Assembly (NCBI RefSeq): GCF_030812675.1
Contig: NZ_JAUSTE010000021.1
Location: 1 to 35,658 of the forward strand
From: Sinomonas atrocyanea
GTDB lineage: Bacteria; Actinomycetota; Actinomycetes; Actinomycetales; Micrococcaceae
Direction of reading: 5' to 3'
Length of the DNA stretch: 35,658 nt
Shown in pieces: positions 4,269 through 18,540 of the stretch (position 1 is its first letter; each line of letters begins with the position of its first letter). The notes under the pieces are model-generated. The model searched no databases. It saw only the letters and a list, made by a program, of their open reading frames with translations, and had not been told where the DNA came from. The translations under genes were made by a program, and so were the position numbers.

Positions 4269-5642
4269 TCAGTGGGCCAGCGGCCGGCGGGAGGTCTCCT
4301 TGGCGCACAGGACGGCGATGAGGGAGACGATGGCGGCGGCGACGAGGTACCAGGCGGGTGCCAGCTTCGTGTGCAGGAGCCCGATCAGCAGGGTCGCCAT
4401 GAACGGGGCCGTGCCGCCGAAGACGGCGTTGGCGAGGTTGAAGCTCACGGCGAAGCCGGAGTACCGGATGCGGGTCGGGAAGAGTTCGGCGAGGAAGCTC
4501 GGCAGGGTCCCGTCGTTGAGGGTGAGCATCGCGCCGAGGAAGACCTCGACGAGCAGGATGACCGCGAAGTTGCCGGAGTCGAGCAGCATGAACGCCGGGA
4601 CCGTGAGGAGGATGAACAGGATCGAGGCGGACAGGAGCACGCGCTTGCGGCCGAAGCGGTCCGAGGCCATCCCGGTGAGGAAGATGAAGCCGATGTAGGT
4701 CAGCAGCGCGATCGTCGTGGCGAAGAAGGACTCCGTGGCCCCGAAGCCCAGCTCCGTGGAGAGGTAGGTGGGCATGTAGGAGAGGATCACGTAGAAGCCG
4801 ACGGCGTTGAGCAGCACCGCGCCGACCGCCAGGATGAGCGAGCGCCAGTGCTTGACGAACATGTCCTTGACCGGGGCGTGGGTGACCTCGTCCTCCTGGG
4901 CCAGTTCGCGGAACACGGGGGTGTCCTCGAGCTTGGTCCGGATGTACCGCCCGATCAGGCCCATCGGGGCCGCGAGCAGGAACGGCAGGCGCCAGCCCCA
5001 GGCCGCCATCTCCGAATCGGTGAGGACGATCGAGAGCAGGGCCGCGAGGAGCGAGCCGAGCAGGAGGCCGGCGGCCGTGGAGGCCGGGACGACCGCTGCG
5101 TAGAGGCCACGGCGGTGGGCTGGGGCGTACTCGACGAGGAACGCGGAGGCCCCGGCGTACTCGCCTGCGGCCGAGAAGCCCTGGATCACGCGGATCACGA
5201 GGAGGATGATCGGGGCCCCGACGCCGATCATGGCGTAGGGCGGGATGAGGGCGATGCAGAACGTCGCGCCGCTCATGATGAGGATGGAGAGGGAGAGGGC
5301 CGTGCGGCGGCCGAGGCGGTCGCCGATGTGGCCCCACACGAAGCCGCCGAGGGGCCGGACGAAGAACGAGATCGCGAAGACTGCGAAGGTCGCCAGCAGC
5401 GCGGTCTGCTTGTCGGAGTCCGGGAAGAAGGCCGCGGCGATCGTGGAGGCGAGGTAGCCGTAGACCGCGTAGTCGAACCACTCGACGAAGTTGCCGATGA
5501 AGCTGCCCCACAGGACCCGACGGCGGGCGTCTTTGCCGATGCCGTCGGACCCTGCCGGGGAGGGCTGTCCGCTCAGCGGCACGTCTGCCTCGTGCCCTGC
5601 GCTGGTCGGGGATGCCAGGCGGGGGGAGTGTTCAGTGCTCAT
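4269..5642 (-). CDS. MFS transporter, metabolite:H+ symporter (MHS) subfamily
   Basis: This 457-residue, 12-helix-type carrier opens with the MHS signature GSFIGNFVEWFDYAVYGYL near residues 47-65 and carries the loop motif GDRLGRR about 80 residues later. MHS members import organic acids, betaines and similar small zwitterions by proton symport across the cytoplasmic membrane. It is first in a two-gene transcript with creatinase, so creatine is the most economical substrate guess; creatinine is an alternative. The start has only a weak ribosome site (GGTGG). A clear -35/-10 promoter and paired palindromic operators precede it. Confidence 0.9.
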   Translation of the reverse strand: MSTEHSPRLASPTSAGHEADVPLSGQPSPAGSDGIGKDARRRVLWGSFIGNFVEWFDYAVYGYLASTIAAAFFPDSDKQTALLATFAVFAISFFVRPLGGFVWGHIGDRLGRRTALSLSILIMSGATFCIALIPPYAMIGVGAPIILLVIRVIQGFSAAGEYAGASAFLVEYAPAHRRGLYAAVVPASTAAGLLLGSLLAALLSIVLTDSEMAAWGWRLPFLLAAPMGLIGRYIRTKLEDTPVFRELAQEDEVTHAPVKDMFVKHWRSLILAVGAVLLNAVGFYVILSYMPTYLSTELGFGATESFFATTIALLTYIGFIFLTGMASDRFGRKRVLLSASILFILLTVPAFMLLDSGNFAVILLVEVFLGAMLTLNDGTLPSFLAELFPTRIRYSGFAVSFNLANAVFGGTAPFMATLLIGLLHTKLAPAWYLVAAAIVSLIAVLCAKETSRRPLAH

Positions 5643-5664: not shown

Positions 5665-5681
5665 GTTGCGTTTACCGCAAC
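5665..5681 (-). promoter_or_regulatory. GTTGC-N7-GCAAC operator in the leader of the MFS-creatinase operon
   Basis: The sequence GTTGCGTTTACCGCAAC is a perfect instance of the 17-bp palindrome shared with the amidase and hyuAB promoters. A half-site GTTGC starts exactly 20 bp on (5685). It lies just downstream of the predicted transcription start, a position expected for repression. Confidence 0.65.
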
Positions 5682-5690
5682 TCGGTTGCA

Positions 5691-5710
5691 CCAGACTACG
5701 TGTGGTCTGG
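5691..5710. promoter_or_regulatory. CCAGAC palindrome overlapping the -10 box
   Basis: CCAGACTACGTGTGGTCTGG is symmetric at 16 of 20 positions and covers the -10 hexamer of the MFS-creatinase promoter. It differs from the GTTGC-type operator and could bind another regulator, for example the PucR-type protein. The regulator is not known. Confidence 0.45.
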
Positions 5711-5721
5711 GTCACGGTCAA
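5693..5721 (-). promoter_or_regulatory. Promoter of MFS-creatinase operon
   Basis: On the minus strand TTGACC (5716-5721) and TAGTCT (5693-5698) are separated by exactly 17 bp, a good sigma-70-type promoter. The predicted start is near 5686, giving a leader of about 45 nt that contains the operator at 5665-5681. Confidence 0.7.
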
Positions 5722-5735
5722 TAAGTCGCACCGAT

Positions 5736-5752
5736 GTTGCGGCAGTTGCAAC
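5736..5752 (-). promoter_or_regulatory. Upstream GTTGC-N7-GCAAC operator of MFS-creatinase
   Basis: GTTGCGGCAGTTGCAAC is a second full match to the palindrome, 14 bp upstream of the -35 box and touching the creatininase stop codon. A degenerate copy lies 20 bp away (5716-5732, ending GCACC) over the -35. Together with 5665-5681 the promoter is flanked by operators on both sides. Confidence 0.6.
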
Positions 5753-6543
5753 TAGATGACGGCGAGGGGCGAGCTGGAGCGCAGCTCGGCGTCCACCTCC
5801 GCCGCGAGCGCCGCGGAGGTCCGCTCGAGGAGCAGTGCGCCGGCCTCGCCCGACGCCGCCGCGGCGGAGGACAGGCACCCCGAGGCGGGGGTGAGCTCTG
5901 CCCGCACCGGCAGGACGTCGTACTTGGGCAGCTGCGCGGCGGGCAGGTCCATGACCCGGTCCAGCTGCACCCGCTCGGGATGCAGGTGGAGCATGAGCGA
6001 GGTCTCGAGGACGCCGCCGTGCTCCACGTCCCACCCGGGGAAGGTGCCGCGGTAGATCTGCTCGATCGTGTCCTCGTCCACGAAGTCCCAGTAGGAGAGC
6101 AGGAGTGCCGAGACGTCCTGGCCCCGCAGGACCAGCTCCGAGGTGGCCTGCTCGACGCCCTCGTAGAGGAACTGGTAGTTCTCGAAGTGGCCGTTGAGGA
6201 AGACGAGCCGCCGGGCCCCGTGCCGCGCGAACTCGAGGGTGAGCGTGCGGGCGATCGAGATGAGCGTGGCCGCGTCCAGGCTCGTCGTCCCGCCGAGGTG
6301 GTTGCCGCCGCCCGAGCGCTGCTGCGACTTGTAGCCGTACACGATCGGTGCGGCGACCAGCCCTCCCACGGCCTCGGCGAGTCGCTCGCTCATGGCCCGC
6401 GACAGGACGACGTCCGTGTTGAGCGGCAGGTGCGGGCCGTGCTGCTCGATCGAGCCCACGGGGATGATGATCGGCGCACCCGCCGCGATGGCCTCGCGGT
6501 AGGTGAAGGCATCGATCTCCTCCATGAAGACGCTGCTGGGCAT
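5752..6543 (-). CDS. Creatininase (creatinine amidohydrolase)
   Basis: Creatininase opens the creatinine ring reversibly to creatine, the entry step for creatinase. The 263-residue protein is very close to the Pseudomonas enzyme along its length. Metal ligands are in place: E33 and H35 (GSIEQHG), D44 (LNTDV), H119 and E121 (NGHFEN). The Trp pair W152 (SYWDF) and W171 and the general acid/base H175 (GWDVEHGG) are also present. The motif YGYKSQQRSGGGNH is characteristic of true creatininases rather than MftE or FAPy hydrolase relatives. The ATG has a strong AGGAGGAG site. It is downstream of the NCS1 permease with a GC hairpin between them, and ends beside the MFS-creatinase promoter. Confidence 0.95.
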   Translation of the reverse strand: MPSSVFMEEIDAFTYREAIAAGAPIIIPVGSIEQHGPHLPLNTDVVLSRAMSERLAEAVGGLVAAPIVYGYKSQQRSGGGNHLGGTTSLDAATLISIARTLTLEFARHGARRLVFLNGHFENYQFLYEGVEQATSELVLRGQDVSALLLSYWDFVDEDTIEQIYRGTFPGWDVEHGGVLETSLMLHLHPERVQLDRVMDLPAAQLPKYDVLPVRAELTPASGCLSSAAAASGEAGALLLERTSAALAAEVDAELRSSSPLAVI

Positions 6544-6582
6544 GGCTCCTCCTGGGAACGTGTTCGGGGGGTGTGTCTGGGG

Positions 6583-6612
6583 CGCCGGCGGCGGGCAGGC
6601 CCGCCGCCGGCG
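6583..6612 (-). terminator. 14-bp GC hairpin between permease and creatininase
   Basis: CGCCGGCGGCGGGC (6583-6596) pairs with GCCCGCCGCCGGCG (6599-6612) around a 2-base centre. It sits 22 bp past the permease stop and has no U-tract. It may lower read-through into creatininase rather than stop it, since no separate promoter for creatininase is obvious. Confidence 0.5.
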
Positions 6613-6633
6613 GTGTTGGGGTGCCGGAGGGGG

Positions 6634-8196
6634 CTACGGCGCCACGGCGGCGGGCGAGCCGGCGGACGACGCCGGGTGCTCGCCGTCGTGCGTCGAGGCG
6701 TCACCGTGGGAGGCGAGGTACTCCTCGTCGCTCACGTCGGCCCGGATGCCGAGCGGGACCCCGTGGTGGATGCGGCTCTTGAAGCGCGGGTAGCCGAGGG
6801 CGAGGTAGAGCAGGCCCGAGGTCAGGGTGCCGGCGAGCCAGGAGAGGTCCACGCCGCCCATGGCGGTGGCGATGGGGCCCTGGAGGAGCGGATCGCCGCC
6901 GTACATGAACAGCCACGTCATGATCAGGCCGGCGAGGAAGGAGATGAGGGCGATCGGGTTGACGGCCTTGAGGCGCGTGTCCTTGGGGTCCAGGAAGAGG
7001 TAGCCGAAGTTCTTGTGCTTGCGCTCGAACACGAAGTAGTGGACCGCCATGATGCCGCCCCAGGTCGCGACCCACGCGACGATGGCGCCGAGCCAGCTGT
7101 CCAGGAGCGCCGCGAAGTCCTCGGCGAAGAGGAAGAAGATCACCGCGACCATGGACAGGCAGCCCACAACGATGGAGAGCGCGCGCCGGCCGATGCGGAT
7201 GTCGAGGGCCTGGGCGGCCACGCCGAACGTGTAGAGGTTGATGATGTTCGTGGCGATCGGGCCGTGGATCACGAGCAGGATCACCGGGATCGCCATGACG
7301 CCGAAGCTCTTGACGATCAGCTCGCCCGGGTCCGCCGTGCCGTTCATGGTCGCGAGGCTCGCGCCGAGCAGGCCCAGCCACACGACCGGGAGGAACTGGC
7401 CCAGGACCGAGGTGAAGTAGAGCTTCTTCTTCGGGATGCTCTTGGAGACGAAGCGGGAGTAGTCGGGGGCGTAGGTGAACCAGCCGATGCCCCAGCCGAT
7501 GCCGATCGCGGTCATGATCCCGGACATTGCGGCGATGCGCTCGCCGCCGGTGAGGATCGCGCCGGCCGGGCCCGCGTAGTGCCAGTCGATGGGCAGCTGG
7601 GTCCACGCGATGATGGACATCGCGACGAGGACGAGGAGGGTCGGCGGCATGGTGATGCGCTCGAACTTCGCGATCGCGCCGTAGCCGCGGTAGCAGATGG
7701 TCACCTGGATGCCCATGATCACGGCGGCGATGCCGATCTTCCAGGCCAGGTTCTGCTGGGTCGGATCGACCCAGCCGATCATGCCGAAGAGCGCCATGAC
7801 GAGGTCGAGGATGACCCACGTGTTCACGGCGGACCAGCCGACGGCGACGAGGGCCTGGATCGCCGCGGGGAGGTAGGCGCCGCGGCGGCCGAACGCCCCG
7901 CGGGCCAGGAGCATTCCGGTGGCGCCGGTCTTCTGTCCGAGCAGGACGAAGAAGCCGAAGCCGACCATGCCGATGACGTTGCCGAGGACGAGCACGGTCA
8001 TCGTGTCGGCGAGGCCGAGGCCCATGTTGATGCCGAGGGCACCGAGGATCCAGTTGATGGGGGCGACGTTGGCCCCAGCCCAGATCCAGAACTGCCCGGA
8101 GACCTTGGTGGTGCGAGCGGACTCGGGGACGGGCTGCAGCACGTCTTCGACGACGTGTGTGGCGTCCTCAGTCTTGCTCTGAGTGCGAAGGCTCAT
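6634..8196 (-). CDS. NCS1-family nucleobase/cation symporter (CodB-like), probable creatinine permease
   Basis: This 520-residue membrane protein of the nucleobase:cation symporter-1 family imports cyclic nitrogenous compounds such as cytosine, uracil, allantoin or hydantoins. An N-terminal tail of about 30 residues leads into the first helix (WIWAGANVAPINW, typical of the purine-cytosine permease branch), followed by many hydrophobic segments and a hydrophilic C-terminus. It lies directly upstream of creatininase on the same strand and divergent from the PucR-type regulator, which suggests that creatinine, a cytosine-like ring, is the cargo. This assignment is from context; cytosine or hydantoin transport is also possible. 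Confidence 0.9.
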   Translation of the reverse strand: MSLRTQSKTEDATHVVEDVLQPVPESARTTKVSGQFWIWAGANVAPINWILGALGINMGLGLADTMTVLVLGNVIGMVGFGFFVLLGQKTGATGMLLARGAFGRRGAYLPAAIQALVAVGWSAVNTWVILDLVMALFGMIGWVDPTQQNLAWKIGIAAVIMGIQVTICYRGYGAIAKFERITMPPTLLVLVAMSIIAWTQLPIDWHYAGPAGAILTGGERIAAMSGIMTAIGIGWGIGWFTYAPDYSRFVSKSIPKKKLYFTSVLGQFLPVVWLGLLGASLATMNGTADPGELIVKSFGVMAIPVILLVIHGPIATNIINLYTFGVAAQALDIRIGRRALSIVVGCLSMVAVIFFLFAEDFAALLDSWLGAIVAWVATWGGIMAVHYFVFERKHKNFGYLFLDPKDTRLKAVNPIALISFLAGLIMTWLFMYGGDPLLQGPIATAMGGVDLSWLAGTLTSGLLYLALGYPRFKSRIHHGVPLGIRADVSDEEYLASHGDASTHDGEHPASSAGSPAAVAP

Positions 8197-8311
8197 GTGA
8201 GACTACTTTCTCGTAGTGTTCGCTGGGGGAGCGAGTAGCCGGCTGCCTTCAAGCGTAGATGTGCGGCGCGTCACCACCTAGATACGTTGTGTCGCCCAGC
8301 CGAGGACTTGT

Positions 8312-8331
8312 GGGTGACAATCTGTCTACCC
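8312..8331. promoter_or_regulatory. Imperfect palindrome in the permease/pucR divergent gap
   Basis: GGGTGACA (8312-8319) and TGTCTACCC (8323-8331) form an inverted repeat with one extra base, 30 bp before the pucR-type start. It is a candidate operator for the PucR protein controlling itself and the permease. No second copy was found in the window. Confidence 0.4.
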
Positions 8332-8360
8332 GTGTTATCCCCGGCCGAGAGTGAGGCCCC

Positions 8361-9866
8361 ATGTCCCTGCCCCTGATCGAGATCCTTGCCGGCGGCGTGC
8401 TCGCCAGCGGGGCGCCCGTCGTGGTGGGCGGCCAGCGCGCGGTCGAGGGCGCGCGGGTCCGGTGGGTGCACTCGAGCGAGGTCCTCGAGATCGCGCCCCT
8501 CCTCTCGGGAGGCGAGCTCCTGCTGACCGGGGGCGCGGCGCTGCTCGCGCTCAAGCCCGGCGCGCAGGCGGAGTACGTCTGGAGCCTGGCCTCCCGGCGC
8601 GTTGCCGCGCTCGCCGTCGAGACCGCCGGCAGCGGGCGGCATCTCCCCGCCGAGCTCGTGTCCGCCGCGGACGAGGCCGGGCTGCCGCTCATCGAGCTGC
8701 GCCAGGTAGTGCCGTTCGTCGACGTGGCCGAGGCCGTGAACCGCAGGATCGTCTCGGGACAGGTGCACGCGCTCCAGGTGGCGGACGGCCTCTCGCAGGC
8801 GCTCACCGAGAGGATTGCGAGCTCGGGAGCGGTGCTGGGGCCGCTCGTGGGGCTCATCGCCGAGACCCTCGGGGTGCACGCGCGGGTGGTGGACACGCGC
8901 GGGGCACTGCTCGCCGCCGCCGGTCCGGACCCGGCGCCGCACGCCCACGGGCCCGACACCGAGCTCACGGTGGGCGGCATCGGCGCCGCACGGCTCGAGC
9001 TGGTGGGCGGCCCCCAGGCGGACGGCGAGCTGCTCGAGACCGCCCTCGCCCGGGTGCGGAGCATCGTCGCGCTGGCCCTCGCCCAGCAGCACCGGCCGAG
9101 CCTGGCCCGGCTCGCGGAGGACGAGCTCCTGCGCCTCATCGGGGCGGGGGGCGGAGGGGACCGTCTCATCGAGCTCTGCCAGGCGGCCGGGGTGGCACCC
9201 GACCAGCCCCTGGCCATGGCGGTGATCCGCCGCCCGGCGGACGGGGCCGCGGAGTTCGAGCAGCGGGCCCGCACCGCCCTGCCGACGGCTCTGCTGATCG
9301 TCGACGGGGCGTGGGTCGACATCCTCCTGGCCCTGCCCGCGCGCGCCGGCCACGGCGAGCGCGAGCGGCTCCTCGGGATGCTCCGGGACTCCGTGGAGGG
9401 CAAGGGGCTCACCGGGGCGCTCGGCCCGACGGCCCCGACCATCCGGCAGGCGGCCTTCTCGCTGGCGGAGGCGCGGGCCACGTGGCGGATCGGCCGCTCT
9501 TCGAAGTGGACGGACGCGATCTACGATGCCTCCGACTTCCTGGTCGAGCGCATGGCGGAGCGCTCGCTGTCGCGCGGCGCCGTCGATGCGCTCGTCGAGG
9601 AGTCGCTCGGCGAGCTGATCCGGCTCGACCAGCGCACGGGCGGCGAGCTGGTGCGCACGCTGGACGTCTGGATCACCGCCGGGTGCAATGCGACCGACGC
9701 GGCCGACATCCTCTTCCTCGAGCGCCAGTCGCTGCACAAGCGGCTCAGGCGCATCTTCGCGGCGATCGGCGGCGACCCGCGGGGCCGGGGGAAGCTCGGC
9801 GCGCTCGCCTTCGCGGTCAAGCTGGTCCGGGGCAACGCCCAGCTCCGCGACGACCCCCGCCCCTGA
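8361..9866 (+). CDS. PucR-family transcriptional regulator
   Basis: The 501-residue protein has an N-terminal PucR (purine catabolism regulator-like) domain over about residues 1-125, a middle GGDEF-like region, and a C-terminal PucR-type helix-turn-helix near residues 430-490 (ATDAADILFLERQSLHKRL). Members are usually activators of catabolic operons for purines, allantoin or related nitrogen compounds. It is divergently transcribed from the NCS1 permease-creatininase genes, the typical arrangement for a local activator. The ATG at 8361 follows a GAGTGAGG site. The ligand is plausibly creatinine or a metabolite, by context only. Confidence 0.9.
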   Translation: MSLPLIEILAGGVLASGAPVVVGGQRAVEGARVRWVHSSEVLEIAPLLSGGELLLTGGAALLALKPGAQAEYVWSLASRRVAALAVETAGSGRHLPAELVSAADEAGLPLIELRQVVPFVDVAEAVNRRIVSGQVHALQVADGLSQALTERIASSGAVLGPLVGLIAETLGVHARVVDTRGALLAAAGPDPAPHAHGPDTELTVGGIGAARLELVGGPQADGELLETALARVRSIVALALAQQHRPSLARLAEDELLRLIGAGGGGDRLIELCQAAGVAPDQPLAMAVIRRPADGAAEFEQRARTALPTALLIVDGAWVDILLALPARAGHGERERLLGMLRDSVEGKGLTGALGPTAPTIRQAAFSLAEARATWRIGRSSKWTDAIYDASDFLVERMAERSLSRGAVDALVEESLGELIRLDQRTGGELVRTLDVWITAGCNATDAADILFLERQSLHKRLRRIFAAIGGDPRGRGKLGALAFAVKLVRGNAQLRDDPRP

Positions 9867-9876
9867 CCCGGCGCCA

Positions 9877-9960
9877 CCCGTTTCGGGTACGCATCTCGTC
9901 GTGTTCTTCCCGTTTCGGGTACGCATCTCGTCGTGTTTTTCCCGTTTCGGGTACGACGGC
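9877..9960 (+). repeat. 32-bp tandem repeat, 2.6 units
   Basis: Units start at 9877, 9909 and 9941. Each begins CCCGTTTCGGGTACGCATCT and ends with a T-rich tail; the third unit is cut short. The first two differ at one base. The same motif with the same 32-bp period occurs in reverse orientation at 19434-19481, so it is a dispersed element of this genome. It is too short and too few to be a CRISPR. Confidence 0.85.
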
Positions 9961-10044
9961 GGCTGCGGCCTCCCGGAGGGCGGTGTCGCCCTCGGCGGCA
10001 CGTCGGACGAGCGGACCCTGCTCCAGGGGGTGCACAGTGGAGCC

Positions 10045-10506
10045 ATGCAGCACGTGATCCAGCTCCTCGCCGCCCTCGCGAATGGCCGCGCCCGCGCGCG
10101 CTTTGCCCGCATTGCGCTGGCCGGCGAAGAGGGGGTGGCGGCGGACCCCTCAGCGGACCGGCTGCTGCGCGCCGCCGGGGTGCTCGAGGAGCTCCCGGGC
10201 GGTGCGGTGCGGATCGACGAGGCTGCGCTCGCCGCGCTGCTGGCCCGGGCCAGGGCAGCGGCGCCGGCCAGGCCGGCGGGGAAGGTCGACCTCCTCCCGC
10301 GCCAGCGCGGACGCCGGCTCCAGCTCCTGCAGGAGCTCGCCGCGGCCGTCCTCGGCGAGGACGAGCGCGTGGCCGAACGCGAGCTCAATGCGCGCCTCTC
10401 CGAACGCGTGCTCGACATCCCCGGGGTGCGGCGCGCGCTCGTGGATGAGGGGATCGTGGCCAGGGAGGTCGACGGCAGCGCGTACTGGCGCTCCAGCGCC
10501 GGCTGA
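10045..10506 (+). CDS. DUF2087 domain-containing protein
   Basis: The 153-residue protein carries a C-terminal DUF2087 module (about residues 85-150). The line LPRQRGRRLQLLQEL, an ERELN motif and the ending DGSAYWR are characteristic. The N-terminal part (residues 1-70) looks like a small helical regulatory domain. DUF2087 is often found in ArsR-like or stand-alone putative DNA-binding proteins, but no function is established. The ATG at 10045 was chosen because the 32-bp repeat ends well upstream. No strong ribosome site is seen, so the start is uncertain. It converges with the MFS gene at 10616. Confidence 0.75.
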   Translation: MQHVIQLLAALANGRARARFARIALAGEEGVAADPSADRLLRAAGVLEELPGGAVRIDEAALAALLARARAAAPARPAGKVDLLPRQRGRRLQLLQELAAAVLGEDERVAERELNARLSERVLDIPGVRRALVDEGIVAREVDGSAYWRSSAG

Positions 10507-10541
10507 TGCCCCCATCGCGGGGGGCGTGCGTCGGACATGCA

Positions 10542-10580
10542 GAGACGCCCCGTCGCCGGGGACGACCTTGCGGGCGTCTC
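10542..10580. terminator. Probable bidirectional terminator between convergent genes
   Basis: GAGACGCCC (10542-10550) and GGGCGTCTC (10572-10580) form a 9-bp outer stem enclosing a smaller CCCC/GGGG hairpin. GGGCGTCTC is repeated at 10591-10599 and could compete for pairing. It lies between the DUF2087 gene and the convergent MFS gene. Confidence 0.55.
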
Positions 10581-10615
10581 CCCGGCAGCAGGGCGTCTCG
10601 CGAGGCGAGCGGCGC

Positions 10616-11974
10616 TCAGGCGCGCTGGGAGACCGAGCGGTTCGGCGCCGTCGTGCCTGCGTCGAGTGATCGGTGCGCCGTCTCCGGGAGCAGCCACGCC
10701 GCGACGAGCGCCCCGGCGGCGACGACGGTCAGGTAGATCGCGGGCGCCATGGGGTTGCCGGTGGTCGCGATGAGCCACGTCGCCACGAACGGCGCTGTCC
10801 CGCCGAAGACGGCATAGCTCACGTTGTAGGTGATGGCCGACGCGGTGTAGCGCACCTCGGTGGGGAAGACCTCCGAGAGCAGCACGGCGGTCACCACATT
10901 CGCGGTCACGGCGCCGACCGCGAGCAGCGCCTGCCCGCCGAGGGCCGCGCCGAACGCGCCGCCCGAGGCCAGCAGGTACGCCGGCACGGCGAGGGCACCG
11001 AGGAGCAGGGACGAGGCGACCATGGTGGGCCTGCGCCCGATCCGGTCGCAGACCCGGCCCAGGACCGGGGCGAGGGCCGCGGCGAACCCGAGGGCGATGA
11101 CGTTGCTGAACAGCACGAGGTCGGCGGGCATCTTCACGACCTCGCGCAGGAACGTGGTCATGTACGTGGAGAACGTGTAGAAGCTGAGGGCCGTGAGCGC
11201 GATGTACCCGCCCAGGATGAGCATCGGGCGCCACTGGAGCGCGAACGTCTGGCGGAGGGGAGCGTGCTCCTTGCCCCGCTGCGCTTCGAGGGCCGCCTGG
11301 AAGACCGGCGACTCGTCGAGCCGGCGCCGGATGTAGAACGCCACGATCCCCAGGGGCGCGGCGACGAGGAACGGGATGCGCCAGCCCCACGCGTTCATGG
11401 CGGCCGCGCCGAGTCCTGCCGTGAGCCCCCAGCACAGCAGGGCGGCCCCGCAGAACGAGCCGAACGTCGCGGCGGGCATCCAGGAGGAGTAGCGCGAGCG
11501 CTGGTCGGCGGGAGCGTGCTCGATCACGTACGCGACGGCGCCGGCGTACTCGCCGCCGGCGGAGAGGCCCTGGACGCTCCGAGCGAGCGTCAGGAGGAGA
11601 GGCGCGACGACGCCGACCGCGCCGAACGTCGGCAGGAGGCCGATGGCCATGGTGGCGCCCGACATGAGGAGGACGGTCAGGGCGAGCACGTGCTTGCGGC
11701 CGATCCTGTCGCCGAGGACGCCGAAGACGGCGCCGCCGATGGGCCGGAGCGCGAACGCGACCGCGAAGACGGCGAAGGTCTGGAGCAGGCCGACGACGTT
11801 GTCGCCTGCGGGGAAGAAGGCGTGCGCGAGCTGGGTCGCGAGGAAGCCGTACACGGCGAAGTCGAACCATTCGACGACGGTGCCGGCGGCTGCCGCGCCG
11901 GTGACCTTGCGGAGCACCGACTGGGGGACGGGGGCGGTCTGGCTGCCAGGGGTGGAAGAGGCTGCGGGGTTCAT
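10616..11974 (-). CDS. MFS transporter, MHS subfamily (second copy)
   Basis: The 452-residue 12-helix-type carrier has the MHS entry motif (AAGTVVEWFDFAVYGFLATQL, residues about 31-51) and GDRIGRK in the first cytoplasmic loop. It is related to the carrier at 4269-5642 but clearly diverged. It lies downstream of the N-carbamoylsarcosine amidase on the same strand, with a strong hairpin between. A substrate from the creatinine/N-methylhydantoin route is likely by position; which one cannot be told. Confidence 0.88.
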   Translation of the reverse strand: MNPAASSTPGSQTAPVPQSVLRKVTGAAAAGTVVEWFDFAVYGFLATQLAHAFFPAGDNVVGLLQTFAVFAVAFALRPIGGAVFGVLGDRIGRKHVLALTVLLMSGATMAIGLLPTFGAVGVVAPLLLTLARSVQGLSAGGEYAGAVAYVIEHAPADQRSRYSSWMPAATFGSFCGAALLCWGLTAGLGAAAMNAWGWRIPFLVAAPLGIVAFYIRRRLDESPVFQAALEAQRGKEHAPLRQTFALQWRPMLILGGYIALTALSFYTFSTYMTTFLREVVKMPADLVLFSNVIALGFAAALAPVLGRVCDRIGRRPTMVASSLLLGALAVPAYLLASGGAFGAALGGQALLAVGAVTANVVTAVLLSEVFPTEVRYTASAITYNVSYAVFGGTAPFVATWLIATTGNPMAPAIYLTVVAAGALVAAWLLPETAHRSLDAGTTAPNRSVSQRA

Positions 11975-12036
11975 GGGGCTCCCGGGAGGGTGGGATCGTT
12001 CGGGGGCGTCCGAGGTGCTCGACGCCAGAGTATGCG

Positions 12037-12071
12037 CAGCGCCCGCCGTCGGGCGAAGACGGCGGGCGCTG
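12037..12071 (-). terminator. 14-bp perfect hairpin after the amidase gene
   Basis: CAGCGCCCGCCGTC (12037-12050) pairs perfectly with GACGGCGGGCGCTG (12058-12071) across a 7-nt loop. It starts 11 bp past the amidase stop and has no U-tract, as is common in high-GC actinobacteria. It probably ends or attenuates the amidase transcript before the MFS gene. Confidence 0.65.
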
Positions 12072-12082
12072 GATGGTGCGGG

Positions 12083-12862
12083 TCAGGCCGGATCCGCGGG
12101 GGCCTCTACCTCGCGCTGGGGGTCCGAGAGGGTCTTCGGGACCGTCTCCTCGAACCGCGGGAGGCCATTGAGGTACTCCACCACCGAATCCGTGGACTCC
12201 ACGTCACCGAACTTGTTGTCGATGTCGTAGAGGTTCCACTGCACGACGCCCGGGACTCGGTCGCCGATGGTCTCCCTCGCGATGATCGGGCGGAACCCCT
12301 TGGCGATCGCGTCCTCGACGGTGTGGCGCACGCATCCGGCCGCGGTCGCGCCGGTCACGATCAGCGTGTCGATGCGGTTGGAGGTCAGGAAGAGCTCGAG
12401 GTTGGTCCCCGGGAATGCCGAGGCGCGGTTCTTCTCGATCACGACCTCGCCTTCCGCGGGCGCGATGCGGTCGTCGATCTGGGCCCAGTAGGAGTCCGCG
12501 GGAAGGGTCTCCACGGGGATCTTCGAGTACCACAGGCCCATGTCGTTGGTCCCGGAGGTGGCGTCGCGGTTGCGGTACACGTTCGTGGTGTAGAAGACCG
12601 GGACACCCTTGGCGCGCGCGGCCTCGTTGATCCGCTGGACATTCGGGATGATCTCCTCCATGCCCGGGCAGCTGAACGGGTGGCCCGGACGCGTCCAGGC
12701 GTTCGCGAGGTCGATGTGGATGACGGCGGGACGGTTGCCGTAGCCGATCCGACGCTTGAAGCCGCGCTCGTTGTAGATGCCGGTGCCGGCTTCGAATGCC
12801 TCCTCCAGCACGGCGGCGAGACGGGTCTCGATGTCCTGGCCCACTGCGATGTCCTGGCTCAT
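12083..12862 (-). CDS. N-carbamoylsarcosine amidohydrolase
   Basis: This enzyme hydrolyses N-carbamoylsarcosine to sarcosine, CO2 and ammonia, the last step of the N-methylhydantoin route. The 259-residue protein is a cysteine hydrolase of the isochorismatase-like superfamily. Its triad D51 (IHIDLANAW), K144 (VIEKNRASAF) and C177 (TAAGCVRHT) falls at exactly the numbers of the crystallised Arthrobacter enzyme. The ATG at 12860-12862 has a GAAGGAG site. It has its own promoter, with an operator filling the -35/-10 spacer. Its partner hyuAB is 1.6 kb away on the same strand, separated by an MFS gene. Confidence 0.95.
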   Translation of the reverse strand: MSQDIAVGQDIETRLAAVLEEAFEAGTGIYNERGFKRRIGYGNRPAVIHIDLANAWTRPGHPFSCPGMEEIIPNVQRINEAARAKGVPVFYTTNVYRNRDATSGTNDMGLWYSKIPVETLPADSYWAQIDDRIAPAEGEVVIEKNRASAFPGTNLELFLTSNRIDTLIVTGATAAGCVRHTVEDAIAKGFRPIIARETIGDRVPGVVQWNLYDIDNKFGDVESTDSVVEYLNGLPRFEETVPKTLSDPQREVEAPADPA

Positions 12863-12898
12863 GGCGTACTCCTTCGAATTTGCTCTAGATGAGGGTTG

Positions 12899-12915
12899 TT
12901 TGCTGCAGTAGCAAC
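12899..12915 (-). promoter_or_regulatory. Downstream GTTGC-N7-GCAAC-type operator of the amidase gene
   Basis: TTTGCTGCAGTAGCAAC matches the shared palindrome in 9 of 10 arm bases and lies in the amidase leader, about 40 bp past the predicted transcription start. Confidence 0.55.
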
Positions 12916-12946
12916 GACCGGAAGGCATGTGATCCAGCTCTCGTTC

Positions 12947-12989
12947 GTTGCTGTGTGACCAATCTATTTGCTGCCGGCGCAACAGACAA
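12947..12989 (-). promoter_or_regulatory. Amidase promoter with embedded operator pair
   Basis: On the minus strand TTGTCT (12984-12989) and TAGATT (12961-12966) are spaced by 17 bp. That spacer (12967-12983) is exactly the palindrome TTTGCTGCCGGCGCAAC. A second, weaker copy (GTTGC-N7-CCAAT, 12947-12963) starts 20 bp away and covers the -10 and start point. Binding here should block RNA polymerase. Confidence 0.7.
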
Positions 12990-13022
12990 GAGGTTCGGCG
13001 AACTTTCTCTCCCGGCCTCTTC

Positions 13023-14372
13023 CTAGTCTTGGCGGACGGTACGCGGGTTGACGTTCCGGGCCGCGAGGATGAGCAGCCCGGAGGCAAAGATGGGCACACA
13101 GCCGATCCAGAAGGCCGCCGTGCTCCACGTCCAGCCGGCGCCCAGGGCGAGCGTGACGAGGAAGCTGCTGATGATTGCCCCGACCTGACCGCTGGCGTTG
13201 ATGATCGAGCCGCCGGTGGCCCTCGTCCGTACGGGGAAGCTCTCGCCGTTGAAGAACAGCAGCGCGGAGAAAGGGCCGATGAGGAAGAACAGGCCGGCGC
13301 TGTAGAGCGCGACGACGATTCCGAAGTTCCCCGACGGCGCGAGCAGCATCGCCGTGAAGGAGGCACCGCACAGGACCCAGCCGATGGCGATCGTGTTGCG
13401 CCGGCCGATCCGGTCGCCCAGCCAGCCGTGGAACACGTAGCCGGCGAAGGCGGTGGCGTTGGAGACCACGAGGATCACAAGGGCGTTCGTGAACGGGATG
13501 TCCTTGCCGTCCGGGGCGCTCAGGAGGGACGTTCCGAGGATTGCGAACACGAGGACGCCCACCCAGTTCAGCAGGAACGAGAGGCCGATCACCACGGTCG
13601 AGCGCAGCGACTCTCCCCGGAACGCCTCGGCGAGGGGGGAGCCGTTGGTGTTCGCGTGCCGGTGCGCCTCGAACTGCGGGCTCTCCTTGAGCCAGCGCCC
13701 CGCGATCACGATGAAGACGGCAGGGAATGCCGCGACGACGAAGCACAGCGCCCAGCCGCCCACAGGGAACAGGAGGTAGATCGAGGCGGCCGCGAGCACC
13801 GAGCCGATGGGCCAGCCGGACTGGACGAGGGAGTAGATGAGGCCGCGGCGCCGTGCCTTGGCCGGATCGGCGTAGGCGTGGGCGAAGAGCTCGTTGAGGT
13901 AGGCGGCGTTGACGGACTGCTCGGCGTAGCCGAGGCCGGCGGCCGAGCGCACGAGGATGAGCAGGACGACGCCGATCCCGCCCACGAGGCCCACGGCCCA
14001 GCCCGCCACGGCGGTGAGGAGCGAGGCGATGGCCGCACCGACGACGGAGATAAGGATGCCCTTCCGGCGCCCGATCCGGTCCACCAGGGGGCCGACGGCG
14101 AACGCCACGAGCGCCGTGCCCGCGGTGACCCACGTGTTGACGGCCGTGGACTGCGCAGGGGCCCAGCCCACCTCGGTGGCGAGGACCGGCAGCAGGTTGC
14201 CGAACAGGACGAAGTCGTACACGGCGAACGTCCATGCGAAGAAGCAGATCCATGTGGCGATGCGGACGTCCCGGGGGGTGAGCTGCCCCGCGGTGGTAGG
14301 GGCCGCCGTCGTGCGCGCGGCGGGCGACCCTGACGCCTTGGTCGGGTCGAGGGTGCTTTCCATCGGTTCCAT
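13023..14372 (-). CDS. MFS transporter (third carrier of the island)
   Basis: The 449-residue carrier starts at the ATG 14370-14372, which has AGGAG five bases upstream; upstream in-frame ATGs lie in a hairpin region and were not chosen. After a Pro/Ala-rich tail of about 45 residues it has 12-helix-type hydrophobicity, with ICFFAWTFAVYDFVLFGNLLP as the first segment and GPLVDRIGRRKG and GWLGDRIGRRN in the two half-repeats. It sits between hyuAB and the carbamoylsarcosine amidase on the same strand, so N-methylhydantoin, hydantoin or creatinine are plausible cargoes. No residue settles this. Confidence 0.87.
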   Translation of the reverse strand: MEPMESTLDPTKASGSPAARTTAAPTTAGQLTPRDVRIATWICFFAWTFAVYDFVLFGNLLPVLATEVGWAPAQSTAVNTWVTAGTALVAFAVGPLVDRIGRRKGILISVVGAAIASLLTAVAGWAVGLVGGIGVVLLILVRSAAGLGYAEQSVNAAYLNELFAHAYADPAKARRRGLIYSLVQSGWPIGSVLAAASIYLLFPVGGWALCFVVAAFPAVFIVIAGRWLKESPQFEAHRHANTNGSPLAEAFRGESLRSTVVIGLSFLLNWVGVLVFAILGTSLLSAPDGKDIPFTNALVILVVSNATAFAGYVFHGWLGDRIGRRNTIAIGWVLCGASFTAMLLAPSGNFGIVVALYSAGLFFLIGPFSALLFFNGESFPVRTRATGGSIINASGQVGAIISSFLVTLALGAGWTWSTAAFWIGCVPIFASGLLILAARNVNPRTVRQD

Positions 14373-14427
14373 GAGTACTCCTGGGGTGAGGTGGCTGGTG
14401 AGCCGGAGGTGTGGATGGGCATGGAAA

Positions 14428-14467
14428 GGGCGGCCGGGTGGGACGCTGTGCGTCCCCCCGGCCGCCC
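14428..14467 (-). terminator. 18-bp hairpin between hyuAB and the MFS gene
   Basis: GGGCGGCCGGG..GGGACGC (14428-14446, with one bulged T) pairs with GCGTCCC-CCCGGCCGCCC (14450-14467) around a TGT loop. In the minus direction it is followed by a short T run (TTTCC). It lies about 40 bp past the hyuAB stop and about 55 bp before the MFS start, so it may be a partial terminator that sets carrier expression below hydantoinase. Confidence 0.65.
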
Positions 14468-14508
14468 CAGTGACTGGATTCAATGCGGTACTGCTGGGTG
14501 TTGCGGAA

Positions 14509-17500
14509 CTAGACGGTGGCGTAGGTGGTCGCCGGGGACCGGCGCTCTGCGGTGCGTGTGGCGTCGACCGTCATGCTGGCGGGGTCGATCACCACTCCGT
14601 AGTCGCGCTCGGCGGCCTCGAGGGTGGTGAAGCCGTCGAGGACGTCCTCGAGGACCTTCTCCGGATCCCGCCGATGCGGGTCGCCGAAGCCGCCGCCGCT
14701 CGGAACGGTGATCTGGAGGGAGTCGCCTGCCAGCAGCTGGCGACCGGTGACCTTGGACGGCCAGGACTCCTCGCCGGGGCGGCCCGGGTTCTTCACGAGC
14801 GAGCCGTTGAGGCCGTCCTGCCCTCCGTACGCGCCCCACGGCACGTCCGACTCGTGGCGTTCGCCCTCGCAGGTGATCACGGTGTCCGTGAGGAAGGTGT
14901 TCTCCCGGACAATGCCGATTCCTCCGCGGAACTCACCGGCGGCCGCCGGCTCGGGCCGCAGCTCGTAGCGGTCGGTCCGCATCGGGAACCGCCACTCGAG
15001 CTCCTCGATCGGGTTGTTGCGGGTGTTGGCGATGAGGTTGTCCACGGAGTCCGGCCCGTCGCTCGTGGCGCGGGCGCCGTAGGAGCCTTCGTTGACCTCG
15101 AGGTACACCCAGTACTCGCCCTGCTTCTCGTCCCATCCCGAGTAGGAGATGAAGTGGATGTGGGCGGAGTTGCCAGCGGTGACGCGGTCGGGGATGACCG
15201 GGGCGAGGGCCCGGAGGGCAAGGTCGACCGCGCGCTGGACCTGGGAGAACCGCGAGAAGGTCGCAGCCGGGTACTTCGGGTTGAAGATGGTGCCCTCCGG
15301 GGCGATCACCTTCAGCGGCTTGAGCATCCCCTCGTTCTGCGGCACGAAGACCGGGAACGCGACCTCGTCGAGGAACATCATCCGCGTGATGAAGGTGAAC
15401 GCGGAGACCGTGGTGCCCTCGAAGGCACAGTTGTAGGCGGTGGGCACCTGTTCTGAGGATCCGGTGAGGTCGTAGGTGATCTCGTCGCCCTGCACGATCA
15501 CCTTCACCGCGATCGGAAGTTTCTTTCCGTAGTTGCGGCCGTCGTCGTCCAGATAGCCGACCTCGGTCTCGTAGACGCCGTCCGGGATCTTGGCGATCTC
15601 CTGGCGCAGCATCCGCTCCGAGTAGTCGATCCAGCTCTGGCCGGCATCGCGCACCGCGTCGAAGCCGTATCGCTCGATGAGGGCGAGATAGCGGGCCTTG
15701 GCCAGCTCGCAGGCTGCGATCATCGCCTGGAAGTCGCCCTCGTTGGAGGTGGGCGTCCGGGTGTTGTTGAGGATGTGGCGGATCAGCGATTCCTGTCGCA
15801 CGCCCTTCTCGTAGACCTTGACAGCGCGGAAGATGGTGCCCTCGGACTGGATGTCCTGGATGTCCACCATCAGGCCGGAATAGGCGCCGCCGTTGTCGAT
15901 CAGCTGGCCAGAGGCGCCGGCGAAGCCCACGAGCAGGCCGTCGTGGAAGATCGGCTCGATGATCGCCACGTCCGGGGAATGGGTGGCACCGAGGTAGGGG
16001 TCATTGTGAAGGATGACGTCGCCCTCATGGATGTCGTCGCCGAGGACCGAGATGACGCCCTTGACGATCTTGGGCATGGAGCCCATGAACATCGGCGTGG
16101 AGTCGGACTCGGCCAGCACGTTGCCGTCCCTGTCGAACAGGCCCGCGCCGAGGTCCTCGGACTCTCGGATGATCGAGGAGTAGGCCATGCGGAACAGCAC
16201 CGAGGCCATTTCCTTCGCCGCGGAGTTCAGCGCGCCGCCGATCACGCGCATCAGGATTGGGGTGGCGAGCTTCTCGGCGGTCTGGGCGGCGGCCGGGCAC
16301 TCGATGACGAGGTTGCCGGCCGGGTCCACGGTCCCGGAGAATCTCGGGGGGACAACAACGGTGGAGTCGTACTGCTCGATGATGGCGGGCCCCACGAAGG
16401 TGGTGCCCACTCCCATCTTGTCGCGGTCGTAGAAGCCGGTGTCCACGGTGACCGGCTTGCCATCCTGCTCGAACGTCACCGGGCGGGTCTCCACGAGCGC
16501 TTCCTCGAGGGAACCGGACGTGGTGGTTTCCGGCGTGGGCAACTCGTCCATCACGGCGCTGGCGTCGACGCGGATGTTGATGACTTCCACGGCGCCGTCC
16601 TTGAAGCGGTGGCCGTACTCCTCGAAGTGGGCGTCGTGGAAGGAGGCCTCGGCCTTCTCCAGCCAGGCCTGGTCGACCGGCCCTTCAGGTGCCACGAAGC
16701 GGATCTCGTACCCCTGGCCCTCGTAGCGTGCGTCGGCGAGCCAGACGAGCTTGCGTCGCCCGGCGGGCACGTCCTCGGCGTCGAGCTGCGCGTTGGCCTC
16801 CCGCTCCAGCGCCTCGTAGGAGGCCTGGATGGCGGCGGGGTCGGCATTGGCGAACGTGAACCGTCGGGTGGCGACGAACTCGTACTTCTCGTCGGTGGCC
16901 AGCAGGCCCGTGGCGGCAATGATGCCGGGGTGGGCCGGAATCAGCACCTTCGGGACCTCGAGCTCGGCCGCGATCTCGCACGCGAACAGGGCACCGGCAC
17001 CGCCCGCCGCGACCAGGGTGAAGTCGCGCGGATCGTAACCGCGGCGTACGGAGTTCTGCTCGATCGCCTGGGTCATGCCGAACTTCTGGATCTGCAGGGC
17101 GCCGAGGGCGGCCTCCTCGATGCTCATGTCGAGGCGGTCTGCGACCTTGGCCATTGCGGCCCGGGCGGCGTCGACGTCGAGCTTCATGTCGCCGCCCGCG
17201 AGACTACGGCGGGCGCGCATGCGCCCGAGGATGAGCTGGGCGTCGGTCGACGTCGGCTCCGTGCCACCGCGGCCATAGCAGACCGGACCCGGAACGGCGC
17301 CCGCAGACTGGGGGCCGACGCGGAAGACCCCTCCCGCGTCGACATACGCGATGGAGCCACCGCCAGCACCGATGGTGTCGATGTCCACCATGGGCACCAT
17401 CGCCTGGTGGTCGCCGATCTTGGTGTCCAGCAGGTGGCGCATGCGCAGTTCACCCTGGTAGGCGACCCCGATGTCCGCCGAGGTCCCTCCGATGTCCAAG

Positions 17501-18363
17501 GTGACGACGTTCTCGAAGCCGGACTGGCGACCGGCCCACATGCCCCCGATCAGGCCGCCCACCGGCCCGGACATCATCAGTGTGACGGGCCTCTTGGCGG
17601 CCTCTTTGATCGGGACCATGCCGCCTGAGGACTGCATGAGGAGGACTTCGCGCTGGTAGCCGAGCGCCCTGACCTGGGAGGCGAGCCGGGCGAGGTACTT
17701 GGAAACCTTGGGTCCCACGAAGGCATTGAGCGCGGTGGTGGAGAACCGCTCGTACTCCCGGTACAGCGGCACGATGTCGCTCGAGAGGGAGAGGTAGGCC
17801 TCGGGGAACTCTTCGGCCACGATCTCCCCGATCCGCTGCTCGTGGGCAGGGTTCAGGTAGGAGTGCAGGAGGCAGACCGCGATGGCCTCGACGCCGGCGT
17901 CCTTGAGCTGGCGGACGCGCTCGCGGACCTCGTCGGTGTCCAGAGGGACGAGGACATCCCCGTTCGGGGCAGTGACGCGCTCTCTGACGGTGAGACGATG
18001 ACGGCGCTTGATGAGGGGCTTGGTCTGCCACGGCATGTCCTGCTGCAGCGAGAAGTTGTGCGGCTTCTTGTGCCGCGCGATGTGCAGGATGTCCCGGAAG
18101 CCCTCCGTGGTGATCATGCCCACCTCGGCGCCGGTGTGCGTCAGGGCGATGTTCGTCGCCACCGTGGTGCCGTGCACGAGCTGGTCGATCTCGGCGAGGT
18201 CGGTGCCGGCCTTCGCGACGAGCCGCTGGAGGCCCTCGATGACGGCATCAGACGGATCGTGCGGAGTGGAGGGCACCTTCTCGATGACAGCTCTCCCGGC
18301 TTCATCGTCGGAGAAGTAGAGGTCGGTGAATGTGCCGCCGACGTCGACGCCGATACGCTTCAT
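14509..18363 (-). CDS. ATP-dependent N-methylhydantoinase, HyuA-HyuB fusion
   Basis: This 1284-residue protein joins both hydantoinase/oxoprolinase subunits. HyuA (residues 1 to about 700) starts with the ATPase phosphate motif GVDVGGTFTD and contains HGTTVATN and DIGGTSADIG. HyuB begins near residue 704 (ILMRVIGGALNSAAKEM) and includes HNDPYLGATHSPD and a C-terminal GGGFGDP. The family opens cyclic imides with ATP hydrolysis. Given the carbamoylsarcosine amidase nearby, the expected reaction is N-methylhydantoin to N-carbamoylsarcosine. Bacterial N-methylhydantoinases are usually two polypeptides; the fused form and length resemble eukaryotic 5-oxoprolinase, which is the main alternative. 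AAAGGAAAG precedes the ATG at 18361-18363. It is divergent from iclR copy 2, with four operator-like palindromes between. Confidence 0.92.
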   Translation of the reverse strand: MKRIGVDVGGTFTDLYFSDDEAGRAVIEKVPSTPHDPSDAVIEGLQRLVAKAGTDLAEIDQLVHGTTVATNIALTHTGAEVGMITTEGFRDILHIARHKKPHNFSLQQDMPWQTKPLIKRRHRLTVRERVTAPNGDVLVPLDTDEVRERVRQLKDAGVEAIAVCLLHSYLNPAHEQRIGEIVAEEFPEAYLSLSSDIVPLYREYERFSTTALNAFVGPKVSKYLARLASQVRALGYQREVLLMQSSGGMVPIKEAAKRPVTLMMSGPVGGLIGGMWAGRQSGFENVVTLDIGGTSADIGVAYQGELRMRHLLDTKIGDHQAMVPMVDIDTIGAGGGSIAYVDAGGVFRVGPQSAGAVPGPVCYGRGGTEPTSTDAQLILGRMRARRSLAGGDMKLDVDAARAAMAKVADRLDMSIEEAALGALQIQKFGMTQAIEQNSVRRGYDPRDFTLVAAGGAGALFACEIAAELEVPKVLIPAHPGIIAATGLLATDEKYEFVATRRFTFANADPAAIQASYEALEREANAQLDAEDVPAGRRKLVWLADARYEGQGYEIRFVAPEGPVDQAWLEKAEASFHDAHFEEYGHRFKDGAVEVINIRVDASAVMDELPTPETTTSGSLEEALVETRPVTFEQDGKPVTVDTGFYDRDKMGVGTTFVGPAIIEQYDSTVVVPPRFSGTVDPAGNLVIECPAAAQTAEKLATPILMRVIGGALNSAAKEMASVLFRMAYSSIIRESEDLGAGLFDRDGNVLAESDSTPMFMGSMPKIVKGVISVLGDDIHEGDVILHNDPYLGATHSPDVAIIEPIFHDGLLVGFAGASGQLIDNGGAYSGLMVDIQDIQSEGTIFRAVKVYEKGVRQESLIRHILNNTRTPTSNEGDFQAMIAACELAKARYLALIERYGFDAVRDAGQSWIDYSERMLRQEIAKIPDGVYETEVGYLDDDGRNYGKKLPIAVKVIVQGDEITYDLTGSSEQVPTAYNCAFEGTTVSAFTFITRMMFLDEVAFPVFVPQNEGMLKPLKVIAPEGTIFNPKYPAATFSRFSQVQRAVDLALRALAPVIPDRVTAGNSAHIHFISYSGWDEKQGEYWVYLEVNEGSYGARATSDGPDSVDNLIANTRNNPIEELEWRFPMRTDRYELRPEPAAAGEFRGGIGIVRENTFLTDTVITCEGERHESDVPWGAYGGQDGLNGSLVKNPGRPGEESWPSKVTGRQLLAGDSLQITVPSGGGFGDPHRRDPEKVLEDVLDGFTTLEAAERDYGVVIDPASMTVDATRTAERRSPATTYATV

Positions 18364-18414
18364 GTGGCTTTCCTTTCGATCGCTCCGCCCTGGGGCTGGC
18401 GGAAACGGGATTTT

Positions 18415-18451
18415 GTTGCTTTCCCATCAAGCTAGTTGGGCGGTGAGCAAC
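18415..18451 (-). promoter_or_regulatory. Operator pair and -10 box of hyuAB
   Basis: GTTGGGCGGTGAGCAAC (18435-18451) and GTTGC-N7-TCAAG (18415-18431) are 20 bp apart. A minus-strand -10 hexamer TAGCTT (18429-18434) directly abuts the stronger site, the same geometry as at the amidase promoter. The -35 (ACCAAG at 17 bp) is poor, so expression may depend on an activator, or the real -35 is elsewhere. Confidence 0.6.
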
Positions 18452-18497
18452 CTTGGTTTCGAACAGGTAAGACGTTTCGCACGTGAGCTGAATCACA

Positions 18498-18540
18498 TAT
18501 GCTGTTGCTGTGCTCCCAAAGTAGTTGCTTGCACAGCACC
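18498..18540 (+). promoter_or_regulatory. -10 box and operator pair of iclR copy 2
   Basis: TATGCT (18498-18503, with a weak -35 TTTCGC 17 bp upstream) is followed at once by GTTGC-N7-CCAAA (18504-18520) and, exactly 20 bp on, GTTGC-N7-GCACC (18524-18540). The sites would cover the transcription start, which suggests autoregulation. Confidence 0.5.

Follow-up and report, generated by a model that had tools for sequence, protein, structure and literature searches.

According to PMC8222616, IclR regulators, palindromes of the length discussed here, tandem sites 18–22 nt apart and the core geometry of the TphR operator are already known. Most IclR sites are described there as lying 20 to 80 bp before genes, and the GTT-11-AAC subgroup of group 1 is given the consensus GTTYCRYW3RYGRAAC. 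In Corynebacterium glutamicum ATCC 14067 the described regulator of creatine and creatinine breakdown is AmtR, a TetR-family nitrogen regulator that targets crnA-creT, cshA and hyuB there (PMC8864220). The subject of this analysis is a stretch of 35,658 nucleotides from Sinomonas atrocyanea (contig NZ_JAUSTE010000021.1, positions 1 to 35,658; the window in what follows), in which an island on one contig of a 4.12-Mb genome holds genes for both creatinine routes, mostly on the minus strand, and in which copies of a 17-bp palindrome, GTTGC-N7-GCAAC, stand in three promoter gaps. The positions, layout and conservation of these copies suggest that two paralogous IclR regulators probably serve one route each, IclR1 the creatine route and IclR2 the N-methylhydantoin/carbamoylsarcosine route.

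The island resembles the AmtR system in that the same creatine/creatinine pathway would be controlled, and differs from it in its putative binders, which are pathway-linked IclR proteins, and in its motif, the AmtR sites reading CTAT-N6-ATAG (PMC8864220). A literature search, for which subscription papers and the supplementary regulogs of PMC8222616 were largely out of reach, returned nothing on IclR control of creatinase or creatinine genes and, with the same limits, the AmtR work in Corynebacterium as the sole study of regulators of these genes. PMC12048155, the one paper that contains both creatinase and IclR, concerns protein encoding by its title.

The sites fall into two classes. Creatine-side promoters, those of the transporter-creatinase type, carry GTTGC[A/G]-N5-[T/C]GCAAC with no tandem, and the promoters of carbamoylsarcosine amidase, hyuAB and iclR2 have GTTGCT-N5-AGCAAC, in most cases together with a further GTTGC at a distance of 20 bp. 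In the window, the first class is represented by two predicted operators, both exact palindromes, at 5665..5681 (GTTGCGTTTACCGCAAC) and 5736..5752 (GTTGCGGCAGTTGCAAC). The centre of the former lies about 31 bp before the start codon of the transporter gene MFS1, and the latter lies 71 bp further upstream, its final base being the final base of the creatininase gene; identical copies of both occur in a Sinomonas atrocyanea locus (L117:6062 and L117:6133). The second class is represented by four predicted tandem operators, unstranded like the former two. Two belong to the amidase promoter, namely 12879..12915 (palindrome 12899, partner half-site with one mismatch 12879) and 12947..12983 (palindrome 12967, weak partner 12947), and both have a counterpart in L004 and L020. 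The other two occupy the divergent gap between hyuAB and iclR2, namely 18415..18451 (palindrome 18435, weak partner 18415), which is 80 bp from hyuAB with equivalent distances of 80 and 79 in L004 and L020, and 18504..18540 (palindrome 18524, weak partner 18504), which is 84 bp from iclR2. All four palindromes in these two gaps have a second GTTGC 20 bp to the left (three exact, one TTTGC), whereas at that distance the creatine-gap sites show three mismatches within the five bases. This layout had escaped the preliminary description.

These positions agree largely with the preliminary description, which had placed full or near-full copies at 5665, 5736, 12899, 12967 and 18435: the first two are perfect and the other three have one mismatch. 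Among the weaker copies that it named, 12947, 18415 and 18504 were recovered with two mismatches and 18524 with one, better than claimed, but 5685 and 5716 were rejected as sites, both having more than two mismatches, with only the left half present at 5685 and GGTCA...GCACC at 5716. The weak copies at 12947, 18415 and 18504 are partners lying 20 bp from a palindrome, and hence not independent copies. The placement before creatinine-pathway genes was borne out for all three gaps, except that the 5665/5736 gap heads an MFS transporter-creatinase operon and not creatinase directly.

Compared with the GTT-11-AAC subgroup of group 1 (PMC8222616), the sites share the 17-bp palindrome, the GTT/AAC ends and C at position 5, and the creatine-type sites alone also share R at position 6. 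They differ by G for Y at position 4 in both classes and by T for R at position 6 in the hyuAB-type; among distinct sites, G occupies position 4 in 96% of creatine-type and 90% of hyuAB-type arms, and T occupies position 6 in 81% of the latter. The sites are thus palindromes within the 17–18 bp of group 1 with GTT/AAC-like ends, these ends being conserved by construction since the sites were selected by motif, but they deviate from the strict consensus GKTYCRYW3-4RYGRAMC at positions 4 and 6, which sets the operators outside the group 1 consensus class and makes them alike in geometry only. The TphR operator of Comamonas, TTTTTGCGCATAGCGCAAAAA, contains TTTGC-N7-GCAAA, which has the same core geometry, and resembles the creatine-type sites in having G at position 6, yet differs in the outer base and belongs to the terephthalate genes, with another regulator and in another organism (PMC8222616). 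A palindrome with an extra external half-site is also found in the three-box operators of PcaU, PobR and HmgR (PMC8222616). Here, however, 20 bp separate the extra box from the matching one, and a weak second arm accompanies it in several cases; tandem palindromes therefore fit better than a three-box operator.

The 17-mer is not enriched as such. With up to two mismatches, 16 copies were counted in the window against 14.4 expected, and 33 of 100 shuffles reached 16, so that the weak copies carry no meaning singly and the count by itself was ruled out as evidence; the case for the sites consequently rests on position and layout. The whole genome has three exact copies, two of which are in the window. 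At no more than one mismatch, the genome-wide scan called for in the preliminary description found 38 places, 32 of them elsewhere and six inside the three promoter gaps (524 bp in total), where 0.004 would be expected (Poisson P ~7e-18, for gaps picked after the fact). The 37-bp composite GTTGC-N15-GTTGC-N7-GCAAC, allowing three mismatches, gave 13 rows in the window, a count inflated by overlapping rows, compared to 0.85 expected and a maximum of four in 100 shuffles; allowing two, the whole genome gave seven rows, or five places, four of them in the window. A reversed control, CAACG-N7-CGTTG, was often commoner across the genome (229 vs 38; also 85 and 91 vs 35 and 27), which shows that the motif is not in general excess there, though this control has a different base make-up in such a genome and was not used further. 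The notion that the copies are chance repeats without function is in keeping with the unremarkable 17-mer count, and for 5685 and 5716 it is correct. It is statistically excluded for the six main sites; position, composite layout and conservation all speak against it, and we consider its likelihood negligible.

The conservation was followed in relatives, with genes placed by tblastn matches. In Micrococcaceae, 18 loci with IclR2 relatives were found, and in 17 of these (L004-L020) a site with at most one mismatch lies no more than 350 bp upstream of amidase, HyuAB, IclR2 or MFS2. The remaining locus, L021 of Sinomonas sp. ASV486, has no site at this threshold, its amidase and HyuAB are missing and its IclR is divergent. 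Beside the GntR-glyA-sox genes of this genome (L132 and L021), where amidase and HyuAB are absent, the IclR2 relative that is left (52%) sits on a very long branch and no site with up to one mismatch persists, as if the regulator had decayed together with its targets.

On the creatine side, creatinase (E<=1e-120) was present in 40 of 396 Micrococcales genomes, and the locus was examined in every one of them. In 39 an IclR homologue (E<=1e-30) was present, in 38 inside the examined locus or window and in G141 on a different contig. Likewise, 39 have a site with at most one mismatch no further than 350 bp upstream of a creatine-side gene (creatinase, MFS1, creatininase or NCS1), the best site per genome being exact in 28 and having one mismatch in 11. 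This conservation before creatinine-pathway genes supports that part of the preliminary description. G319 is the sole genome without a site and also the sole genome without an IclR homologue (E<=1e-30; E<=1e-25), although it keeps creatinase, creatininase, transporters, a PucR-like gene (36%) and GntR (64%). This genome bears on the suggestion that the motif is bound by another regulator of the island, PucR (8361-9866, plus strand) or GntR (19509-20171), whose genes both lie within it: G319, a single genome, has both of them together with the creatinine genes, yet no site with up to one mismatch was seen in its 14-kb locus. As the length and symmetry of the motif are also those of described IclR sites, binding by PucR or GntR appears highly improbable.

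A class-level sample gave creatinase in eight of 394 genomes, three of them outside the order. Taken with 1.5-kb flanks, these three loci contained no site at up to one mismatch, but in wider stretches an exact creatine-type site was present in the two (L133 and L134) that have an IclR1 homologue beside creatinase. The site at L133:9372 is directly upstream of a transporter-like frame preceding creatininase and creatinase, and that at L134:4704, accompanied by an additional one-mismatch site at L134:4889, stands in front of a permease-like frame (NCS1 type by reading) that precedes creatinase by two genes. L135 begins at a contig end, and its 10 kb yielded no IclR homologue. The frame at L133:7545-9308 (BCCT type by reading) heads a creatininase-creatinase-IclR1 row and is a possible creatine or creatinine transporter. 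Creatine-type sites were also observed before glyA, at L072:10907 (G113, 272 bp) and L102:6316 (G315, 76 bp), so the creatine regulon may include the next pathway step in some genomes.

The two site classes were compared after removal of duplicates, leaving 82 sites from 53 genomes on the creatine side and 61 from 20 genomes on the hyuAB side. Left out were L108 (the island of L009 again), L114 (which coincides with L081), one L083 site assigned to an IclR match of 43%, sites lying inside genes or further than 350 bp from the projected start, MFS2 targets below 55% identity, sites repeated within a genome, sites that had only other genes nearby and the L133 and L134 sites; sites in L089, L093 and L103, whose sole target is an MFS homologue of 42-43%, were kept in the creatine class. 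The inner base was A or G in 143 of 164 creatine-side arms and T in 102 of 122 hyuAB-side arms. A partner half-site at 20 bp accompanied 46 of 61 hyuAB-side sites, often with a weak second arm, compared to 2 of 82 on the creatine side. Both classes occur together in 19 genomes; the hyuAB side had the higher T fraction in all 19 and the higher tandem fraction in 18. The split was seen for each target gene (creatinase 21, MFS1 44, amidase 24, HyuAB 16 and IclR2 9 distinct sites, leaving out L122, a repeat of L007), and since it appears separately at each target promoter it does not reflect one inherited promoter. In 45 of 54 loci, the centre of the nearest creatine-type site is 20 to 85 bp ahead of the projected start; for amidase, the nearest site lay at 26 to 121 bp (20 loci), in seven of them at 36-38 bp.

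These differences bear directly on the claim of the preliminary description that one regulator, most simply the IclR protein encoded beside four of the sites, unites both routes. If IclR2 alone bound all sites, the differences in bases and layout would be tolerated variation, and the common GTTGC core, the almost identical recognition helices of the two IclR proteins and the position of IclR2 next to four sites would be in line with this. However, 34 genomes with creatine-type sites have no hyuAB-side site in the examined loci. Of these, 33 belong to the order sample, none of them is among the 15 genomes with HyuAB at E<=1e-200, and their IclR matches group with creatinase-linked proteins, except for that of G315, which branches as the sister to the IclR2 clade. 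The 34th genome is that of Sinomonas sp. ASV486, with its divergent IclR2 relative. Moreover, the classes separate by inner base in all 19 paired genomes. A member of the IclR2 clade occurred in only five of the 40 creatinase genomes (G000, G183, G113, G184 and G255), with HyuAB of at least 83% there, and the creatine-type site therefore mostly occurs without IclR2 in this sample. Control of both routes by IclR2 alone is accordingly very unlikely, and the single-regulator claim is not supported in view of the inner base (R vs T) and the tandem layout. What stands of the earlier proposal is that an IclR-type regulator is the likely binder; for 5665 and 5736 this is most simply IclR1, as creatine-side sites and IclR1 homologues are found in many genomes without an IclR2 or HyuAB match and IclR2 forms its own clade.

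In a tree of 80 IclR proteins, with a root for drawing only and several long branches flagged, IclR2 falls in a clade of 34 rows (support 100/99) whose members are mostly encoded beside HyuAB or amidase; the distant IclR of L019 (35% to IclR1) falls outside it. The creatinase-linked protein of G315 is sister to this clade (98/98) and the remaining creatinase-linked proteins form a grade around it. As G315 has R-type sites, with one mismatch, R at the inner base is probably ancestral and T derived. In an alignment of 32 and 41 rows (7 of the 80 being left out: L102, L021, two L006 rows, L007:19281, L019:910 and L105), the recognition helix HKS[S/T]VSRIL was nearly invariant in both groups, in line with the common GTTGC core. 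Consistent differences between IclR2 and IclR1 were seen in helix 1 (E27 vs R26), at the end of the recognition helix (G58 vs mostly T57), in residues 60-66, in the wing (G72 vs R/K71) and in the effector domain. In helix 1 and the wing the G315 protein shows the IclR2 residues, but its recognition helix ends with T, a weak pointer from a single protein that G58 or its neighbours may track the R-to-T change best. Matching of operator positions to helix-turn-helix residues through the numbering of PMC8222616 was dropped because the offset to IclR1 and IclR2 could not be fixed.

Some further observations concern the same protein family. Many Arthrobacter-type islands (L005, L006, L008, L009 and L011-L017) have two side-by-side IclR2-clade genes, from two subclades, which suggests a further duplication. 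Genus g19 has a third IclR, 30-32% identical to IclR1, with exact GTTGC-N7-GCAAC copies, e.g. GTTGCGTACTATGCAAC, nearby on the 3' side of the gene (among the matches listed, G042:C1:547696, G219:C1:280187, G208:C25:7090, G311:C61:172061 and G184:C11:61360; further off in G128, G382 and G391), and the GTTGC half-site may serve a wider IclR group. PDB 3obf, the effector domain of a putative IclR-family regulator, matches IclR1 better (E 7.2e-66 over 172 residues) than IclR2 (E 1.7e-42) and thus probably comes from an IclR1 relative.

Several findings weigh against assigning one regulator to each route. The sites of relatives are not independent events, owing to kinship, and 11 of the 39 creatine-side genomes have one-mismatch sites only. 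G762 has no tandem partner on either side, including its three hyuAB-side sites, and in the window the sites at 12967 and 18435 each combine one T arm with one G arm. All 16 named genomes searched behind IclR2 loci also carry an IclR1 orthologue, and the five order-sample genomes with IclR2 also carry creatinase-linked IclRs, so that no T-type site was seen in the presence of IclR2 only. In G265 a T-type HyuAB site goes with a single IclR homologue, which is one of the creatinase-linked type; the regulator in this genome may be missing from the assembly, may be more divergent, or may be IclR1. A scan of the three gaps for sigma-70-like promoters found none. Finally, the shared recognition helix makes cross-binding plausible. 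The possibility that both regulators bind both classes at different strength, and so couple the routes, draws on this near-identical helix, on the mixed-arm sites and on G265, where only an IclR1-type regulator was found. The clear separation of the classes in paired genomes suggests, on the other hand, selection for discrimination, and we regard such cross-talk as doubtful though worth entertaining; being a variant of the two-regulator reading it overlaps with it, and the likelihoods given to the two do not sum to one.

With one regulator per route, IclR1 would bind the 17-bp palindromes at 5665 and 5736 and control the transporter-creatinase operon, and IclR2 would bind the tandem operators at 12879, 12947, 18415 and 18504, controlling the amidase promoter, hyuAB and its own gene. 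Each tandem operator would consist of a strong GTTGCT-N5-AGCAAC palindrome and a weak partner two helical turns away, on which two IclR2 dimers probably sit along the same face of the DNA; the layout is compatible with the two-dimer binding described in PMC8222616. The near sites are placed where a bound protein could block the promoter. Each regulator would most likely repress its operons until a pathway compound occupies the C-terminal domain, possibly creatine or creatinine for IclR1 and N-methylhydantoin or N-carbamoylsarcosine for IclR2. Looping between the operators of a pair, whose spacings in the window are 71, 68 and 89 bp, was set aside because the spacings vary in relatives. More tentatively, duplication of an ancestral creatine regulator (IclR1) with single R-type palindromes may have rewired the pathway, with IclR2 keeping the helix while moving to T at base 6 and to tandem operators as it gained control of the N-methylhydantoin/carbamoylsarcosine genes; through the shared core the paralogues might then still compete at some sites and switch between routes.

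From IclR1 to hyuAB, the genes of the island are on the minus strand except PucR. The putative creatine-route regulator IclR1 (1967..2776) has HTH_IclR (PF09339) and IclR_C (PF01614) above cut-off and a homologue in the creatinase locus of relatives. It is followed by creatinase (2962..4212; PDB 1chm, creatine amidinohydrolase, E 3.9e-171), MFS1, a metabolite/H+ symporter-like transporter heading the creatinase operon (4269..5642; match below the NCBIfam cut-off), creatininase (5752..6543; NCBIfam equivalog TIGR04448, above cut-off) and an NCS1-type permease (6634..8196; Pfam PF02133). Beyond PucR lie MFS2, another metabolite/H+ symporter-like transporter (10616..11974; match below the NCBIfam cut-off), which in L108 has a homologue of 60% preceded by a site and its GTTGC partner, N-carbamoylsarcosine amidase (12083..12862; PDB 1nba, E 1.4e-161), the transporter MFS3 (13023..14372; weak family match, start codon uncertain) and hyuAB, a fused hydantoinase A/B of 1284 aa and presumed N-methylhydantoinase (14509..18363; Pfam Hydant_A_N, Hydantoinase_A and Hydantoinase_B). 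Divergent from hyuAB is the gene of IclR2, the putative regulator of the amidase/hyuAB route and of itself (18616..19422, plus strand; PF09339 and PF01614 above cut-off; 94% identity to a Sinomonas atrocyanea counterpart), and then come a GntR gene and genes for glyA and sarcosine oxidase, both of which were identified by reading translations. The biochemical roles of these enzyme families are established knowledge. The view that both routes from creatinine to sarcosine are encoded was upheld, the expected enzymes being found except for a proven creatinine deaminase. A zinc dehydrogenase and a cytidine-deaminase-type protein adjoin IclR1 (window 399-1921), likewise in the Sinomonas loci L117-L119, and the latter protein is a candidate for the conversion of creatinine to N-methylhydantoin. 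SoxR of Bacillus thuringiensis reportedly concerns sarcosine oxidase, and Nishiya et al. 1998, cited in PMC8864220, are said to have dealt with a creatinine cluster of Arthrobacter TE1826.

Candidate regulators and operators are thus available for the two bacterial routes of creatinine breakdown, the enzymes of which are employed in clinical tests for creatinine. Sensors for creatine or N-methylhydantoin could make use of the predicted sites, and the effector domain in PDB 3obf would be a candidate for creatine binding if it does come from an IclR1 relative. G319, G315 and G265 offer natural comparisons for the two-regulator reading. For the IclR family, the locus would be a compact example of paralogues whose operator codes have diverged with the recognition helix unchanged.

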